Below are positions 1,389 to 53,299 of a stretch of DNA of 64,000 nt, piece after piece (the stretch's first letter is position 1; every line of letters starts with the position of its first letter). The notes beneath the pieces are model-generated. The model made no database searches. It was given only the letters and a program-made list of their open reading frames with translations, and was not told the origin of the DNA. A program made the translations under genes and the position numbers. The DNA is from Sphingomonas parva (ex Maeng et al. 2020) (lineage in GTDB: Bacteria > Pseudomonadota > Alphaproteobacteria > Sphingomonadales > Sphingomonadaceae), in the NCBI RefSeq assembly GCF_004564275.1, contig NZ_SPDV01000035.1, positions 1-64,000 of the forward strand, in the 5' to 3' direction.

Positions 1389-2615
1389 CTAACGGGCGCC
1401 AGAGCCCGTCATCACCGTCTTCACGGTTCCGGCGATGATCAGCACGTCGAGCCAGAACGAGAAGTTCTTGATGTAGTAAAAGTCGTACTGGAGCTTCCAC
1501 AGCACGTCGCTCACCTCGGCGACATGCCCCTGCCGCACCTGCGCCCAGCCGGTAATGCCCGGCCGCACGATGTGCCTGTAGCGATAGAAGGGCAACTCCG
1601 CCTCATACCAGTGGGACAGCGGCACCGCTTCGGGGCGCGGGCCGATCCAGCTCATGTCGCCGCGGATGATGTTGACGATCTGCGGCAGCTCGTCGATCCG
1701 GCTACGCCGAAGGAAACGGCCAACGCGCGTGACGCGATCGTCGCCGTCTCTGGTCATCGCCGCCTGCCGGGCGTCGACGGCGTCCGACCCGTGACGCATG
1801 GTCCGAAACTTGTACATGTTGAACGGATGACCGCGATATCCCATCCGCTGTTGCCGGAAGAGCACCGGGCCGGGAGAATCCCACCGGATCGCGAGCGCGA
1901 CGAGCAGCAGAAAGGGCAGGAGCAGCGGCAGCGCCACGATGGCGAGGCCGAGATCCCACGCCCTTTTCACCTTGGCGTAGACGATGCCGGGGATCAGCGA
2001 GCCGAGGTTGTTCTCCGACAGATGATCGATCGCGACCCGGCCGGTCAGCGATTCCTCCATCTGCTTGACGTGCATGACGAGCGTGCCGTCGAGCGCCCGG
2101 TCGGCAAGGAAGCGCTCCCATTCGTCGGGGATGTCGGCACGCAGATCGGCGACGATGGCATCGTAGCGCTCGTCGATGTCGGCCTTGTCGCTCAGGTCCA
2201 CCCAGGCGACATCGGGGAGCGCGAGCAGATGCTCGACCTGTCCTGCGGGCACGATCCCGATCCGCAAGCGCTGCTGACGCTGCAGCTTGAAATAGACCAC
2301 GTAATACCAGCCGATGCAGAGCAGGAAGCTGGCGAGGAAGTGAAGGCGGCTGTAGTCGAGGCGAAGGAAGAAAAAGACCGTCAGGATGATCGCATAGGCT
2401 GCGGCGAAGGACGGCAGGATGTTGTACGACGCGCGGACACCCGGATAATGGGAGACGCGGCGGAAGCCGTAATAGCCGGCCACCAGCGCGACGATCGTCC
2501 CCACGAGCGAGTTCTGCAGACTGTCGATATCGGCACTGCGCACCTCGTAGCGGAAGCGCACCGCCCACGGCAGGAGCACGGCAAGCAGCAGCCCGATCCC
2601 GAGCTGGAAGCGCAT
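1389..2615 (-). CDS. Exopolysaccharide priming sugar transferase (polyprenyl-phosphate glycosylphosphotransferase)
   Basis: This integral membrane enzyme should transfer a sugar-1-phosphate to undecaprenyl phosphate, the first step of repeat-unit assembly. Four hydrophobic helices fill roughly the first 140 residues, followed by a soluble central region. The C-terminal catalytic domain opens with a membrane helix after Lys-Arg-Ala-Trp-Asp and carries the family signatures Lys-Phe-Arg-Thr-Met-Arg, Asp-Glu-Leu-Pro-Gln and Gly-Pro-Arg-Pro. The open frame extends to 2822, but the extra 69 residues are rich in Arg, Pro and Ser and do not look membrane-like. I therefore start at the ATG at 2615, which gives 408 residues. 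It runs convergent to the guanylyltransferase. The sugar used cannot be read from sequence. Confidence 0.88.
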   Translation of the reverse strand: MRFQLGIGLLLAVLLPWAVRFRYEVRSADIDSLQNSLVGTIVALVAGYYGFRRVSHYPGVRASYNILPSFAAAYAIILTVFFFLRLDYSRLHFLASFLLCIGWYYVVYFKLQRQQRLRIGIVPAGQVEHLLALPDVAWVDLSDKADIDERYDAIVADLRADIPDEWERFLADRALDGTLVMHVKQMEESLTGRVAIDHLSENNLGSLIPGIVYAKVKRAWDLGLAIVALPLLLPFLLLVALAIRWDSPGPVLFRQQRMGYRGHPFNMYKFRTMRHGSDAVDARQAAMTRDGDDRVTRVGRFLRRSRIDELPQIVNIIRGDMSWIGPRPEAVPLSHWYEAELPFYRYRHIVRPGITGWAQVRQGHVAEVSDVLWKLQYDFYYIKNFSFWLDVLIIAGTVKTVMTGSGAR

Positions 2616-3025
2616 CCGATGCCATAGCGTCCTGCGGACACTGGCGATTTTGGCGGGCTGAAGAGACACGAAAGAGAGAGCTCTGGTGCTGAAGAGGGAC
2701 TGCGGAGTTTCCGCGGTTCGATAGAGGCAAAAGGCGCTGCAAGTCCACAGAGATACGTCTGGGGCGCGTGGCCGGAGGCTGCTCGGCGATCTCGGCGCCC
2801 GGCACCGCGGTGCGCAAGGCACCCGTGCCCCTCTGCCGATGCTTTGGTTTCAATCGGAAATGATCTTTCGGCAGATGAAAGTATCCTCAAGAACACGCAG
2901 GGTCCACGAACGACTCTGCCACGACAAAGTCCGCAGAGCCATTTCCCTCCCGTTGAAACGAGAGTAGCTTTTCACCCAGTTGCGTTGCGTTCCCGCGTCG
3001 GTGACCTGCACAGGGAGCAACAATC
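2616..3025. other. Intergenic region between divergent sugar transferase and autotransporter genes
   Basis: About 410 bases separate the two divergent starts. The part nearest the sugar transferase keeps its frame open to 2822 and could be coding if an upstream start is used. The part nearest 3026 should hold the autotransporter promoter; an AGGGAG ribosome site lies at about 3013-3018. I see no convincing promoter hexamers, RNA gene or repeat. Confidence 0.5.
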
Positions 3026-5251
3026 ATGAACAAGACGAGGATTCTGATCGGCGTTGCCATCGGCGCCGTGGCAGCGGCCTTGAGCCCGACTCCGGCGTCG
3101 GCCCAGTGCACCGCCGGTGCGGCCGCCGGAAGCACGGAGTGCGACGCGCCCGGCGCGCCGGCAACGGCGAGCGGTGTCAATTCGACAGCCAGCGGCAATG
3201 GCGCGGTCGCCTCCCAGCCAGCGGCGACTGCAATGGGCTTCGGAGCCACCGCCGGGGGCGGCAGCACCGGCGAGGCCGCGAGCGCTTATGGTGAGCGTGC
3301 CTTCGCCACGGGGAATTTCTCGACCGCCATCGGCACCTTGTCGGGCGCGACCGGGACATCGTCTGTGGCCGTCGGCGACGTCTCCACCGCGACGGCGGCC
3401 AACGCCACCGCCGTCGGCCGCAACGCCAATGCGAACGCCGCACAAGCCACAGCTTTCGGTTTCAATTCGGTCGCGACGGGCACGAACGCCAGCGCGCTCG
3501 GCCCCACGACGACCGCGACCGGCGCATCGGCCCTGGCGGCCGGCCACGGAGCCTCCGCGACGGCTGCGGACGCGTCCGCCGTCGGCCACGACGCCGCCGG
3601 CACGGGCGCGCAAAGCGCGGCGTTCGGATTCGACGCCGTCTCGAGCGGACTCGCCTCGACCGCTCTCGGTCAGAGCGCAGAGGCTGCCGGCGACGTCGCG
3701 ACCGCTACCGGATCGGGAGCGCGGGCGCTGAGCCTGGGCGGCACGGCGATCGGCGCCAGCGCCTATACCGACGCGAATTTCGGCGTGGCGATCGGCCGCT
3801 CGGCGAGCGCAACCGGGGTCTCGTCCATCGCCATCGGTGACAGCCCGACGACGACGGGCGCCAATTCGGTCGCGATCGGTCGCAGCACCGTCGCCACCAA
3901 CCAGAGCACGACTGCCCTCGGCAACGCGGCGAACGCCGGCGGGGTGACCAGTGTGGCCGTGGGCAACGCCGCCCGGGCCGCCGACGAGGATGGCGTCGCT
4001 ATCGGCGACTTGGCGGGAGCGACGGGGTTCCACGCCACCGCGGTCGGCGGCGAGTCGACCGCCTCGGGACGGGGGGCGCAGGCTTTCGGCTGGCAGGCGC
4101 GCGCGACCGGCAATCTGTCGCTGGCGAGCGGCCATCAGGCGACCGCCGCTGGGAACCAGTCGACGGCAGTAGGCAAGAGCGCCTCGAGCGCGGGCGCCAA
4201 CGCAACCGCCCTCGGCTTCTCCGCCTCGGCCGGCGGGCCTTCCTCCACCGCCCTCGGGGACACCGCCGCCGCCGCAGGGACGAACGGCACCGCGGTGGGC
4301 GTTCTCGCAAGCGCCGGCGGCACCTCGTCTGCCGCATTCGGCGCCGCCGCAAATGCCTCCGCACTGACCAGCGTCGCCGTGGGCAACGGCGCACAGGCGA
4401 CCGACGAGGATAGCGTTGCCGTCGGCGATCTCGCGACCGCCACCGGCTTCCATTCGACCGCGGTGGGCGGAGAATCGGTCGCTTCCGGGCGCGGCGCCCA
4501 GGCTTTCGGCTGGCAGGCGCAGGCCAGCGGCAACCTCTCTCTGGCGAGCGGCCATCAAGCGGTCGCCGGCGGGGTCCAGGCGACGGCGGTGGGCAAGAAC
4601 GCGGCGGCGGCGGGGACCAGCGCGACCGCGCTCGGCTTCGGCGCGTCGGCTGCGGCAGCCAACTCCAGCGCGCTCGGCACCGGGGCGACGGTCGCCGCCG
4701 CGCATACCAACTCGACCGCGCTGGGCAATGGCGCCGCGACCACGGCGGCAAACCAGGTAACGATCGGGGGCGCCGGCTCGGCAGTGCGGCTGGGGGGTTA
4801 CACGACGCCCGGCGTGCTGGTGAACGACGCCAGCGGCAACGTCACCAGCAACACGACTCTGCTGGGCAACGTGTCGACGCTTCAAACGACGGTGGCGACG
4901 CAGGGGAGCTCGATCGCGGCGCTGCAGACGTCGGTCGGCAGTCAGGCGAGCGCGATCGCGGCGCTCGAGGGGCAGACCACCACCCTGTTCGATCTGGCCG
5001 ACATCAACCGGCGCGACATCCGCAAGGCGAACGAGGGTGTCGCAATGGCTCTTGCGATGGAAAGCCCGGGGGTGCCCGCCGGCGCCAGTTTCGCGGTGTC
5101 GGGCGGCTTCGGCTATTATCAGAATCGGGTAGCCGGAACGGCGGCTTTCTCGGCGCGGATCGGCCAGATGTCGTCCTTCTCCGCTGGGCTGGGCGTCGGC
5201 CTCAACAGCGGCGAGGTCGGCGCGCGTGCCGGCTTCCAGGCAGCGTGGTGA
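3026..5251 (+). CDS. YadA-type trimeric autotransporter adhesin
   Basis: This 741-residue protein should form a trimeric surface adhesin that anchors itself in the outer membrane. A signal peptide ends near residue 26 (Ala-Ser-Ala/Gln). Residues of about 60-600 are almost entirely degenerate 14-residue head repeats of the YadA type, with recurring Thr/Ser-Ala-Val/Leu-Gly and Ala-Ser-Gly steps. A short heptad-rich stretch (about 615-660) acts as the stalk, followed by the conserved Asn-Arg-Arg-Asp-Ile neck. A four-strand beta anchor ends in the aromatic Trp. The stalk is very short relative to the head. A near-exact 140-residue block occurs twice in tandem. It sits inside glycan genes, which suggests a joint role in surface attachment or biofilm. 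Confidence 0.9.
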   Translation: MNKTRILIGVAIGAVAAALSPTPASAQCTAGAAAGSTECDAPGAPATASGVNSTASGNGAVASQPAATAMGFGATAGGGSTGEAASAYGERAFATGNFSTAIGTLSGATGTSSVAVGDVSTATAANATAVGRNANANAAQATAFGFNSVATGTNASALGPTTTATGASALAAGHGASATAADASAVGHDAAGTGAQSAAFGFDAVSSGLASTALGQSAEAAGDVATATGSGARALSLGGTAIGASAYTDANFGVAIGRSASATGVSSIAIGDSPTTTGANSVAIGRSTVATNQSTTALGNAANAGGVTSVAVGNAARAADEDGVAIGDLAGATGFHATAVGGESTASGRGAQAFGWQARATGNLSLASGHQATAAGNQSTAVGKSASSAGANATALGFSASAGGPSSTALGDTAAAAGTNGTAVGVLASAGGTSSAAFGAAANASALTSVAVGNGAQATDEDSVAVGDLATATGFHSTAVGGESVASGRGAQAFGWQAQASGNLSLASGHQAVAGGVQATAVGKNAAAAGTSATALGFGASAAAANSSALGTGATVAAAHTNSTALGNGAATTAANQVTIGGAGSAVRLGGYTTPGVLVNDASGNVTSNTTLLGNVSTLQTTVATQGSSIAALQTSVGSQASAIAALEGQTTTLFDLADINRRDIRKANEGVAMALAMESPGVPAGASFAVSGGFGYYQNRVAGTAAFSARIGQMSSFSAGLGVGLNSGEVGARAGFQAAW
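3947..4690 (+). repeat. 420-bp in-frame tandem duplication inside the autotransporter head
   Basis: Two blocks, starting at 3947 and 4367, align at an exact offset of 420 bases, which is 140 residues or ten 14-residue head repeats. Both contain the same Gly-Ala-Gln-Ala-Phe-Gly-Trp-Gln-Ala and Ser-Leu-Ala-Ser-Gly-His-Gln-Ala segments. At 4081 and 4501 the first 20 bases are identical. Similarity fades after roughly 4690. The preceding head region does not align at the same offset. Confidence 0.85.
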
Positions 5252-49250: not shown

Positions 49251-51257
49251 TCAGCGCCCGCGAAGGTCGGGCGGGCTGGCGTCGGCAGCGAGCCGCGCGA
49301 CCAGCGCGTCGAGCGGCAGCACCTCCTGGCGCGCGTCGCTGCCCAGCGGACGCAGCGCCACCGTCCGCTCCTCCGCCTCGCGCTTGCCGAGGACGAGCAG
49401 GTTCGGGACCTTCTTCAGGCTGTGCTCGCGCACCTTGTAGTTGATCTTCTCGTTGCGAAGGTCGGCTTCGGCGCGGATGCCGGCCGCCTGCAGCGCCGCC
49501 ACCACCTCGCGGGCATAATCGTCGGCGTCGGACACGATCGTCGCGACCACCGCCTGCACTGGCGCGAGCCAGAGCGGAAAGCGACCGGCGTGATGCTCGA
49601 TCAGGATGCCGATGAAGCGCTCGAACGTGCCGAGGATCGCGCGATGCAGCATCACCGGCCTGTGGCGCTGCCCGTCCTCGGCCACGTAGGAGGCGTCGAG
49701 CCGCTCGGGCAGCACGGTGTCGGCCTGGATGGTGCCGACCTGCCAGGTCCGGCCGATCGCGTCGCGCAGGTGGAACTCCAGCTTGGGCGCGTAGAAGGCG
49801 CCTTCGCCGGGCAGCTCTTCCCAGCCGAACTCCGGCGTGTCGCGACCCGCGGCGTGGACGGCGTCCCGCAGGATCTGCTCGGCTCTGTCCCAATCGGCGT
49901 CGGAGCCGAAGCGCTGGTCGGGGCGGAGAGCGAGCTTGATCGCATAATCCTCGAAGCCGAGATCGCGATAGACGCTGTCGAGCAGATCGCAGAAGTCGCG
50001 GATTTCCTCGATCAGCTGGTCCTCGCGGCAGAAGATGTGCGCATCGTCCTGGGTGAACTGGCGCACGCGCATGATGCCGTGCAGCGCGCCGTGCGGTTCG
50101 TTGCGGTGGCAACAGCCGAACTCGGCCATGCGAATCGGCAGGTCGCGATACGATTTGATCCCCTGGCGGAAGATCAGCACGTGCGCCGGGCAGTTCATCG
50201 GCTTGAGCGCCATCAGGTCCGCGTCGCCGGAGAGCACCGGGCCCTCCTCCTCGGTGCTCGGGATCTCGTCGGGAACGACGAACATGTTCTCGCGATACTT
50301 GCCCCAGTGGCCGGACTGCTCCCACTGGCGGGCGTCCATCAGCTGCGGCGTCTTCACTTCCTCATAGCCTGCCGCGTCGAGGCGGCGACGCATATAGGCT
50401 TCGAGCGCGCGCCAGATCAGATAGCCCTTGGGGTGCCAGAACACCGATCCCTGCGCCTCGGACTGGAGATGGAACAGGTCCATCTCCTGGCCGATGCGGC
50501 GATGGTCGCGCTTGGCCGCCTCCTCGAGCCGGACGAGATGCGCGTCGAGCTGCTTCTTGTTGAGCCAGCCCGTGCCGTAGATGCGCGACAGCATCGCGTT
50601 CTTCTGGTCGCCGCGCCAATAGGCTCCGGAGACCCGGGTCAGCTTGAACGCATTGGGGTCGAGCTTCCCGGTGGAGGCGAGGTGCGGACCTCGGCAGAGA
50701 TCGACCCAGTCCCCCGAGCGGTACATGGTGATCGTCTCGTCGGCGGGCAGCTCCATCACCCACTCGGCCTTGAACGCCTCGCCCGTCTCCTCGAAATATT
50801 TGCGGACGTCGTCGCGCGTCCAGACCTCGCGAACCAGCGGCGCGTCCTTCGCGATCACCCGGCGCATCTCCGCCTCGATCGCCGGGAGGTCCTCGTCGGT
50901 GAACGGCCCCCGGTCGGACGCCGGCGCGAAGTCGTAATAGAAGCCGTCCTCGGTCGCCGGACCGAAGGTGATCTGGGTGCCGGGGAAGAGGTTCTGCACT
51001 GCCTCGGCGAGAACGTGGGCATAATCGTGGCGGACGAGCTCCAGCGCCTCCGCCTCGTCGCGGGCGGTGATCAGGGCGAGCTCGGCATCGCCTTCGAGCG
51101 GCCGGTTGAGGTCGCGGACCTCGCCGTTGACGCGGGCCGCCAGCGCGGCCTTGGCGAGGCCGGGCCCGATCGCTGCGGCGACGTCGCCGGGCGTGGTGCC
51201 CTCCTCGACCTCGCGGACGGAGCCATCGGGAAGGCGGATTCGGAAATGCTGCGTCAT
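49251..51257 (-). CDS. thrS: Threonyl-tRNA synthetase
   Basis: This 668-residue class II enzyme charges tRNA-Thr. TGS domain at 1-60, editing domain with His-Asp-Tyr-Ala-His near residue 78 and Cys-Arg-Gly-Pro-His, catalytic core with Met-Asn-Cys-Pro-Ala-His and [11 protein letters not shown] motif 2, and anticodon-binding domain at the end. The ATG at 51255-51257 matches the usual start. The ribosome site is weak. thrS-infC order matches other alphaproteobacteria; rpmI and rplT are not adjacent. Confidence 0.96.
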
Positions 51258-51429
51258 AGGCGCGTGCATGTAGCGACGCGCATCGCCTTCCTCCAGCCCC
51301 GCCCCGCGATTTCGTGCGGGCACGGCCCGCGGCAGGCGGCGAGGTGCGGCGATCCGAAGGACGCGTTGCGGCACCGCCACCCTGAGTGGCGCTCAGGACA
51401 CGATCTGGAACTTAATCCTTGCTCAACTC

Positions 51430-51457
51430 TTGAACGGCATTGTACAGATTGTACATT
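51430..51457 (+). promoter_or_regulatory. Promoter with TGTACA inverted-repeat operator
   Basis: TTGAAC (51430-51435) and TACATT (51452-51457), 16 bases apart, read as a sigma-70-type promoter. TGTACA occurs at 51441-51446 and 51450-51455 with three bases between, each self-complementary, overlapping the -10 element. This is a good place for antitoxin autorepression. Confidence 0.65.
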
Positions 51458-51511
51458 CCAGCGGCGTCTGATCCTCTTTGAATGCGGCGCACGTGCAACA
51501 GGAGCAAGTCG

Positions 51512-52045
51512 ATGGTGCTTCATACCGAGGAAGACCCTTTCGCCGGAGTCAGGAAGATCGACGCGACCGACGCCCGCCAGTCGTTCAGCGATCTTGTGAG
51601 CCAGGTCGCAGTCGGCCGCCGAACCTTGCTGATGCGGAACGGCAAGCCGGTATGTGCGATCGTCTCCCTACCGGACCTGCATCTGCTGCTCGCCCGCGAC
51701 GCCAGCCGCGACGAGGTCATGCGACAGTCGCCGCCGGCTGAGGGACGCGGACGATCGTTCAGCGAGATCCGCAAATCCGGCGCGGTCGCGGATGCGCTCG
51801 GCACTGCGAGTTCCTCTTCGACAGCGGTTCAGACAGCCGCGGCGGACGATGCGGCGACGGCCATCGCGCAGCTGGTCGAGGCAACCTCGCGCATTGTGAT
51901 CGAGCGCATGCGCGAACGCGGGCCCGCCGAGAGCGTCGAAGAGGAGAAGGCCGAGATTGCCGAGCTCGTTCTTGCCTCTCTGTCCGGCCAAGCGGTATAT
52001 TCGCAGGAACAGGCCGAGGAGCGGGAGGCTGCCGGGAGCTGGTGA
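51512..52045 (+). CDS. Phd/YefM-family antitoxin with C-terminal extension
   Basis: This 177-residue protein begins with a Phd/YefM DNA-binding fold (about 15-65): Ile-Asp-Ala-Thr-Asp-Ala-Arg-Gln-Ser-Phe-Ser-Asp-Leu-Val and Thr-Leu-Leu-Met-Arg-Asn-Gly-Lys-Pro-Val-Cys-Ala-Ile-Val. Typical members are about 80-90 residues; this one has about 100 more, Ala/Glu-rich and probably helical. AGGAG lies just upstream of ATG 51512. A palindromic operator precedes it, and a GTG-started ORF overlaps its stop. The order antitoxin-partner matches type II toxin-antitoxin operons. Confidence 0.82.
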   Translation: MVLHTEEDPFAGVRKIDATDARQSFSDLVSQVAVGRRTLLMRNGKPVCAIVSLPDLHLLLARDASRDEVMRQSPPAEGRGRSFSEIRKSGAVADALGTASSSSTAVQTAAADDAATAIAQLVEATSRIVIERMRERGPAESVEEEKAEIAELVLASLSGQAVYSQEQAEEREAAGSW

Positions 52046-52365
52046 GCGAGAGACGCATCCCGGTCGGACCGTACGAGCTGGTGGTTCCGGAGGAATGCGT
52101 TACGGCCTACCGAGTGAGCGTCTCGATCCTCGAGAAGCTCCATGTACCGTGGGAAGACTTCGATCTGGAGATCGACGGGCTGCTCGCCGAGTTCGATCAG
52201 GGCTACATCCCCGAAGACGCTGTCGCCGTCACGGGTGAGCCGGACACCTATGCCTTCACGCGCTGCGGCGTGAGGCTCCACATCAGGATCGACCAGGGGT
52301 TGATGGATCTGGTTGTCGTCCGCATTCAGCCTCCGTCGCAATGGATCTTGCCGAGGTCTTTCTGA
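52042..52365 (+). CDS. Unknown protein co-translated with the antitoxin
   Basis: This 107-residue ORF starts with GTG inside the antitoxin stop (GTGA) and has a GGGAG site. It has an Asp/Glu-rich middle (Val-Pro-Trp-Glu-Asp-Phe-Asp-Leu-Glu-Ile-Asp-Gly) and a C-terminal beta hairpin (Arg-Leu-His-Ile-Arg-Ile-Asp-Gln-Gly then Leu-Val-Val-Val-Arg-Ile-Gln-Pro). The hairpin is reminiscent of RelE/ParE-like toxins, but I cannot match a known toxin. Position is that of the toxin partner. Its 3' end overlaps the opposite-strand gene by 83 bases. Confidence 0.6.
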   Translation: MSERRIPVGPYELVVPEECVTAYRVSVSILEKLHVPWEDFDLEIDGLLAEFDQGYIPEDAVAVTGEPDTYAFTRCGVRLHIRIDQGLMDLVVVRIQPPSQWILPRSF

Positions 52366-53137
52366 CCGGCGCCGGTTGCGCGTCGATGACCACCGGGAGC
52401 GGCTCGATGGCGCGATCTGCGCGCAGCACCAGGACCCCCCGGGCTCCGGGCAGCCCCCACGTCTCCGCACGGACGCGAAAGCGAAGCCACGCCGCGAGCC
52501 GGCGCCCGATCACCGTGCGCACGGTGAGATTGACCAGCTCGCCCGCAGCGATCGCTCGCCCATGCTGCGGGCTGGCTTCCAAAGCTGGTCCGGCCGCGCC
52601 TCTGCGGACCCGCAACTCGCTGTGCAGCCCCCGGAACCAACCGGGCAGGCGGAGACGAGCGCCGGTCAGCTGGAGACTATGCTGGGGCTGGAGCGAGACA
52701 CGGGTTTGCACCAGCGAACCGTTCAGCAGCAGGTGGGCATCGCCCTCCGTGCGATCGTAGAGGAGCCGCCTTGCCCTGGTCTCGCGCAAAGCAACGAGGC
52801 CGTCTCCCAGCACGCATAGCGCCGCCAGGCCGAACCACAACCAGGGCGACACGGATTGGCTCAGGTCGATGACGACGTGCGCGAATCCCGCTTCGGTGCC
52901 GGCCGCGCCGACGGCGTCCGCACGCAACGAAAATCCCAGCGGCAGCGCCGAGGCGGCGACGATCAGGTGGAATCCGCGACGGTAGATCATCGCGGGATTT
53001 CGCGCGATCGACAGCACGAAATAGGCGAGAGCGGCGCCCACCCCCAGCTTCACCGGAATCCATTGCAGCCATGCCGCGAGCGTGACCAGCGTCCCGACGA
53101 AGGTGCTCGTCAGCATTGTCTGACCGAACCAGCTCAT
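52283..53137 (-). CDS. Membrane protein of unknown function
   Basis: This 284-residue protein has four likely membrane helices in the first 120 residues: Met-Leu-Thr-Ser-Thr-Phe-Val-Gly-Thr-Leu, Leu-Gly-Val-Gly-Ala-Ala-Leu-Ala-Tyr-Phe, Leu-Ile-Val-Ala-Ala-Ser-Ala-Leu, and Trp-Leu-Trp-Phe-Gly-Leu-Ala-Ala-Leu. The C-terminal 160 residues are Arg-rich and soluble, with beta-like content. I do not recognise a family. ATG 53135-53137 follows GAGG. Antiparallel overlap with the antitoxin partner ORF suggests possible cross-regulation or chance. Confidence 0.6.
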   Translation of the reverse strand: MSWFGQTMLTSTFVGTLVTLAAWLQWIPVKLGVGAALAYFVLSIARNPAMIYRRGFHLIVAASALPLGFSLRADAVGAAGTEAGFAHVVIDLSQSVSPWLWFGLAALCVLGDGLVALRETRARRLLYDRTEGDAHLLLNGSLVQTRVSLQPQHSLQLTGARLRLPGWFRGLHSELRVRRGAAGPALEASPQHGRAIAAGELVNLTVRTVIGRRLAAWLRFRVRAETWGLPGARGVLVLRADRAIEPLPVVIDAQPAPVRKTSARSIATEAECGRQPDPSTPGRS

Positions 53138-53299
53138 ATCGCCTCGCACTCCCGGCGCCGCCGAGCGCCCGATGTTACGCCCAACTTCGCAGTTGGGCCA
53201 AGGCGCAATGGCCTTGGCGGCGACGCGGCATGTCCGCGGCGCACCCCGGCGCACCCCGGCGCAGTGGGCTTCACAGGATCCCCCCGCTACACGGGAGCG

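Follow-up and report, generated by a model that had tools for sequence, protein, structure and literature searches.

A candidate type II toxin-antitoxin cassette upstream of thrS in Sphingomonas parva combines a long Phd/YefM-type antitoxin with a partner of no recognisable family

Doc, PIN and RelE, together with a MazF-like family, are the partners given for Phd antitoxins in the available text of PMC2701414. In YefM-YoeB systems, paired TGTACA hexamers form the operator core (PMC7730913; PMC4803016), and altered spacing between them disrupts binding to the second repeat (PMC4803016). DNA binding by E. coli YefM requires R10 and R31, according to the same source. The locus described here has an antitoxin and an operator of this kind, and its second gene matches none of the Doc, PIN, RelE and MazF-like partners by the tests made.

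The window, that is, the whole stretch of DNA analysed, comprises bases 1-64000 of one contig of the S. parva genome (4.49 Mb, 111 contigs). The gene for a Phd/YefM-type antitoxin of 177 residues lies on the forward strand at 51512..52045, with an ATG start codon at 51512, a TGA stop at 52043-52045 and the ribosome-binding site AGGAG, read from the sequence, at 51500..51504. It is followed on the same strand (52042..52365) by a gene for a 107-residue partner, a probable toxin, which starts with GTG at 52042 and overlaps the antitoxin stop by four bases (GTGA). Both frames are intact, and on re-reading the coordinates given for the two genes in the initial annotation were correct. Two small, co-oriented, overlapping genes, of which the antitoxin carries a putative DNA-binding domain, correspond to the layout of a type II toxin-antitoxin (TA) operon. 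We estimate a probability of roughly two in three that the locus is a type II TA cassette in which an unclassified toxin would be neutralised by the helical C-terminal extension of the antitoxin and the operon would repress itself. At the level of sequence, the antitoxin family, the operator, the overlapping gene order, a coding partner and extra DNA at the site are established. The earlier reading of the locus as a TA operon is partly supported: the antitoxin family, gene order, overlap and type of operator agree with it, and the partner is a putative toxin.

Membership of the antitoxin in the Phd/YefM family is supported by PF02604 and by an independent profile. PF02604 matched residues 16-63 (E 1.6e-6, 28.3 bits, slightly under the curated cut-off of 29.8), and the NCBIfam model phd_fam matched at E 0.0021, below its cut-off. 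A profile of 34 relatives, from which the antitoxin itself was left out, recovered it at E 1.7e-5 in a search space of 4000. Apart from this gene, the only PF02604 match listed in the genome was one at E 0.38 within an 890-residue frame. The family claim of the initial annotation also agrees with an AlphaFold model, calculated from a 35-row alignment made with Phd proteins, which predicts a DNA-binding and dimerisation domain at residues 14-72 (51551..51727), with block pLDDT values of 94-97 for residues 11-60 and 86 for residues 61-70. With an E limit of 10, Foldseek comparison of the model with the PDB returned 342 matches, of which none fell below 0.001 and the best had E 5e-3 and a probability of 1.00. 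The best 50 of the 342 were all entries for Phd, YefM, other type II antitoxins or TA complexes, with matches to complexes counted by entry rather than by chain. In the model, the N-terminal domain thus has a Phd/YefM fold. Moreover, in the alignment with YefM-like relatives, R22 and R42 of the antitoxin stand at positions 10 and 31 and, assuming shared numbering, would be the equivalents of YefM R10 and R31.

The domain ends at about residue 72 in the predicted model, which leaves a tail of about 100 residues (51728..52042) that is likely the partner-binding part. Its predicted helices include residues 103-136, 142-158 and 165-175, with block pLDDT values of about 73-85. From the start of the domain to the stop codon the antitoxin has 162 residues, compared with 57-93 in the Phd loci of 37 relatives, a non-random sample of mostly best PF02604 hits with some loci picked for long open frames. 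The unusual length of the C-terminal extension, remarked on earlier from the sequence, is borne out by these figures. The codon evidence for the extension is weak, and weaker than that for the partner: it scored 0.17 bits per codon, 11 of 83 wrong-frame chunks did as well, and 1 of 41 true chunks scored lower. Since the neutralising elements of some antitoxins are described as exchangeable between antitoxin domains (PMC10440598, in the text available), the simplest origin of the extension would be such an exchange.

At E 0.001, none of 59 other genomes yielded a relative of the antitoxin, and pattern scans, which require an exact 8-residue match and miss distant relatives, found none in species genomes or viral contigs. 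Phages gave no match at E 0.1, and plasmids gave only domain matches, at E 0.3 and 0.7. At E up to 0.01, matches occurred in 19 of 362 other genomes of the family (20 places, 14 of them read), in a search that scored only nine first-look candidates per listed genome. When 19 fetched loci from this search (L144-L162) were examined with the Phd profile, a Phd domain was detected in L153 and L156 only. These two match the antitoxin in the domain alone; the other loci are other frames, and the partner had no match in any of the 19. L158 was rejected as a relative: it matches the antitoxin at 31% over 140 columns (E 3.6e-5 among the 19 loci, 0.002 at genome size), but in a frame without a Phd domain by the profile.

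A putative autorepression operator, TGTACA-N3-TGTACA with the spacer GAT, lies at the start of the operon (51441..51455). The pattern with at most two mismatches occurs at three sites in the window (one exact), against 0.08 expected. Across the genome, TGTACA-N(0-12)-TGTACA was found in two places, this operator and one without a spacer, and the backward control pattern was found once on each strand. Pairs of TGTACA are therefore rare yet possible by chance, and the position at the operon start carries the weight. By eye, weak promoter-like hexamers (TTGAAC-16-TACATT, 4/6 and 4/6) can be placed on the forward strand at 51430..51457, where a scan for consensus promoters reported none. On this by-eye promoter one TGTACA core lies within the spacer and the other overlaps part of the -10, similar to the placement of the cores in the spacer and on part of the -10 at the axe-txe promoter (PMC7730913, in the text available). 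The initial annotation had described this operator as covering the -10 of a promoter; the exact repeat at the operon start holds, but the promoter is weak and the -10 only partly covered. The spacing also differs, with the cores 9 bp apart from centre to centre here and 12 bp apart in the YefM-YoeB operator. In the 37 Phd loci, TGTACA was found within 200 bases upstream of the Phd domain in 7 of 12 loci with a partner that is YoeB-like by eye and in 0 of the 25 others; a 4-base gene overlap is common among the same loci. Two yefM-like genes with YoeB partners (L036 and L042) have TGTACA pairs at 12-bp spacing upstream and would be useful controls for the 9-bp spacing.

Codon usage marks the 107-residue partner as a real gene. 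With a codon model trained on six genes of the window, the first 80 codons of the partner scored 0.40 bits per codon, above all 83 stop-free wrong-frame chunks; 6 of 41 true chunks, which are the training genes themselves, scored as low. The window holds 212 open reading frames of at least 100 codons, many of them necessarily due to chance, and only one genome has the partner, as expected if the frame were open by chance in GC-rich DNA. Such an origin is highly improbable: none of the wrong-frame chunks reaches the score of the partner, and its start codon runs into the antitoxin stop in the style of TA operons. The partner is acidic, with a net charge of -9, and the antitoxin has a net charge of -8. 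The toxin is usually the basic member of a TA pair.

No above-chance match to the partner was found in Pfam, NCBIfam, PADLOC, PHROG or the PDB. Profiles of PIN, Doc/Fic and MazF/PemK from Pfam and NCBIfam gave no hit at E up to 10, a limit at which the HMMER filters still drop most matches above about E 0.1. The initial annotation had recognised no RelE, Doc or PIN motif in the partner, and no such motif emerged from these searches. The C-terminal third (G-V-R-L-H-I-R-I-D ... L-V-V-V-R-I) resembles, to our eye, the core of RelE, and the order of elements in the partner, which we take to be beta-alpha-alpha-beta-beta-beta, is presumably like that of the RelE core. Within the cassette reading, the partner might then be a very diverged RNase of the RelE/ParE/YoeB type in a pair like YefM-YoeB. 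Its length fits, and the operator core is that of YefM-YoeB (PMC7730913; PMC4803016, as far as available). However, no Pfam toxin hit was obtained at E up to 10, and comparison by hhalign gave a probability of 2.5% against a profile of 27 ParE/RelE sequences (11 columns at the N-terminus of the partner and not in the part that resembles RelE, with 3 of 100 shuffles as good), 0.3% against YoeB alone and 3.8% against the ParE/RelE profile with YoeB added (11 columns). In the last comparison the score exceeded all 100 shuffles. The resemblance seen by eye was not backed by these comparisons. Five YoeB controls scored 8-81% against the ParE/RelE profile. Because of these scores relative to the shuffles and controls, RelE membership is not supported by sequence profiles from Pfam, NCBIfam or hhalign, and the comparison with RelE/ParE leaves the partner unplaced. 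A structure predicted from the single sequence has a pLDDT of 48.7, too poor for use of the fold. With the acidic charge also against it, we regard a diverged RelE-type RNase as a doubtful identity for the partner.

Relatives of the partner were equally sought. None was found in 97 genomes or in 396 genomes of the family, and a pattern scan of 84,980 species found none. Hits at E up to 0.1 occurred in 11 of 384 other genomes of the class and 17 of 397 other genomes of the phylum (best E 0.0034), sets which overlap and in which 38-40 hits are nominally expected by chance. These hits were taken as chance, and none of the 25 fetched loci (L003-L027) carries a Phd gene beside the hit. Phages and viral contigs gave none; a single viral-contig hit (L164) contains a stop and overlaps another open reading frame, and was dismissed as chance. 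A tblastn search of plasmids gave only two matches, both at E 0.4, and in a plasmid DNA search no matching stretch exceeded 70 bases among the 20 records listed of 43. No full-length relative of either protein was found in any collection searched. No description of such a partner came up in the literature that was searched. TA cassettes known from a single occurrence are unusual. That no relative was found, and no catalytic motif recognised by eye, would suit a decaying cassette in which a Phd antitoxin is left with a degenerate or non-functional partner, although two intact frames, the strong codon bias of the partner and the perfect operator cores speak against decay, which we think quite improbable. 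The initial annotation had named a match of the partner to a non-toxin family, or its wide occurrence without the antitoxin, as refuting the TA reading; neither was seen.

The surroundings of the gene pair provide a further line of evidence. In relatives, thrS and a gene for an alpha/beta hydrolase (Pfam) are divergent neighbours; the names thrS, YoeB-like and PIN for genes of relatives were assigned by eye from translations. thrS was found in 52 of the 59 relatives searched, and 29 loci were fetched. The hydrolase gene was near thrS in 14 of these, of which L121 was dropped as a weak match and 13 were compared. The gap between the two genes measures 48-283 bp in 8 of the 13 and 484-1161 bp in 5. 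L116 and L117, the two whose thrS is most similar (90%), have gaps of 105 and 107 bp. In S. parva the gap is about 2.04 kb, taken from the gene starts at 51257 and 53300. Alignment of the flanks to L116 and L117 stops at 51313 or 51348 and restarts at 53286 or 53300, which delimits extra DNA of about 1.95 kb (51314..53299), with its left edge placed to within about 35 bp and its right edge to within about 14 bp. From these comparisons, the extra DNA probably arose by insertion rather than by loss elsewhere. In a congener (G008, locus L139), the same gap encodes a protein with a RES domain (1.4e-21) and an antitoxin of the Xre/MbcA/ParS type (3.8e-6), identified by family searches at 2314-3234 of that locus. 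A RES/Xre pair has been put forward as a TA system (PMC2701414, in the text available). The two occurrences suggest that the thrS-hydrolase gap is a cassette hotspot. The gaps upstream of thrS in L119, L120, L122 and L137 belong to the 484-1161 bp class, with variable content at the junctions; coding-like open reading frames were seen in those of L119 (GNAT-like by eye), L120 and L122.

The extra DNA also contains an orphan open reading frame of 284 codons on the reverse strand (52283..53137), convergent with the operon, with two hydrophobic stretches above threshold in its N-terminal half and no family. It had no Pfam match, no counterpart in the thrS loci of the 29 relatives, and no plasmid or viral relative. 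Among 25 congeners, a slightly longer stretch found a single weak match (E 4.5e-4), which is interrupted by stops, and the N-terminal part gave only a weak match to a TIR effector model of PADLOC (E 0.0015). This frame shares 83 bases at its 3' end with the partner gene; there the partner frame scores -0.14 and the third frame -1.14 bits per codon. Because of this difference the overlap looks more partner-like than like the third frame, though neither scores as coding. The convergent frame within the same extra DNA, together with the acidic charge and the lack of a toxin family, could indicate that the partner assists a Phd-type regulator as an accessory protein, be it a co-repressor, a chaperone or a sensor, and that the locus is an autoregulated switch, perhaps over the convergent membrane-protein gene. 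Order, overlap and operator are nevertheless those of TA operons, and the gap of the congener holds a TA pair, so an accessory role seems unlikely to us.

Under the preferred reading, the locus upstream of thrS is an inserted chromosomal TA cassette. The antitoxin would dimerise through its Phd/YefM domain, which would bind the paired TGTACA at the antitoxin's promoter and so repress the operon, while the long helical extension would wrap and block the 107-residue partner, which would be the toxin and probably a co-repressor as well. Loss of the labile antitoxin would then free the toxin. This TA-cassette reading is strengthened by the Phd/YefM domain, the exact operator at the operon start, R22 and R42, the coding partner, and the extra DNA at the place where G008 carries the RES/Xre pair. 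It is weakened by the lack of a relative, the acidity of the partner, the 9-bp spacing of the operator, the presence of the backward control pattern in the genome, the lack of a consensus promoter and the weak codon signal of the extension.

The partner may represent a new kind of toxin. More specifically, and only tentatively, it could be the first member of a toxin family unrelated to Doc, PIN, RelE and MazF-like proteins, with a new helical neutralising extension gained on a YefM-type DNA-binding domain. If the partner proves toxic, it would add a new class of toxin to those controlled by a well-studied antitoxin and operator, and would directly illustrate the recruitment of a Phd/YefM domain to a new neutralising tail; the thrS-hydrolase gap would be a compact site in which to search related genomes for further TA cassettes.

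Among the closest described systems, the SMa0917 family (PemK/MazF-like) likewise joins a small alphaproteobacterial toxin to a Phd antitoxin (PMC2701414, in the text available). In the plasmid tblastn search with the partner, whose collection includes pSymA, no match to SMa0917 was obtained; no annotated gene for SMa0917 itself was shown in pSymA, where a PemK/MazF-like open reading frame is present by eye. The RES-Xre pair of G008 shares the genomic site and the two-gene form of the cassette, but its protein families are unrelated. Pairs of the Phd-PIN and Phd-ParE-like types, with partners named by eye, have the same gene order, and several share an RNGKPV-like strand in the N-terminal domain, whereas their antitoxins have 57-97 residues and TGTACA is found upstream in none of the 25 non-YoeB loci. 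The YefM-YoeB and Axe-Txe systems differ in that the cores are 12 bp apart rather than 9, the antitoxin is about half as long and, by the sequence comparisons made, the 107-residue protein is not YoeB. As far as the available sources describe them, they share with the S. parva locus a Phd/YefM antitoxin gene in first place, an overlapping downstream gene (as seen in relatives) and paired TGTACA cores at the promoter.
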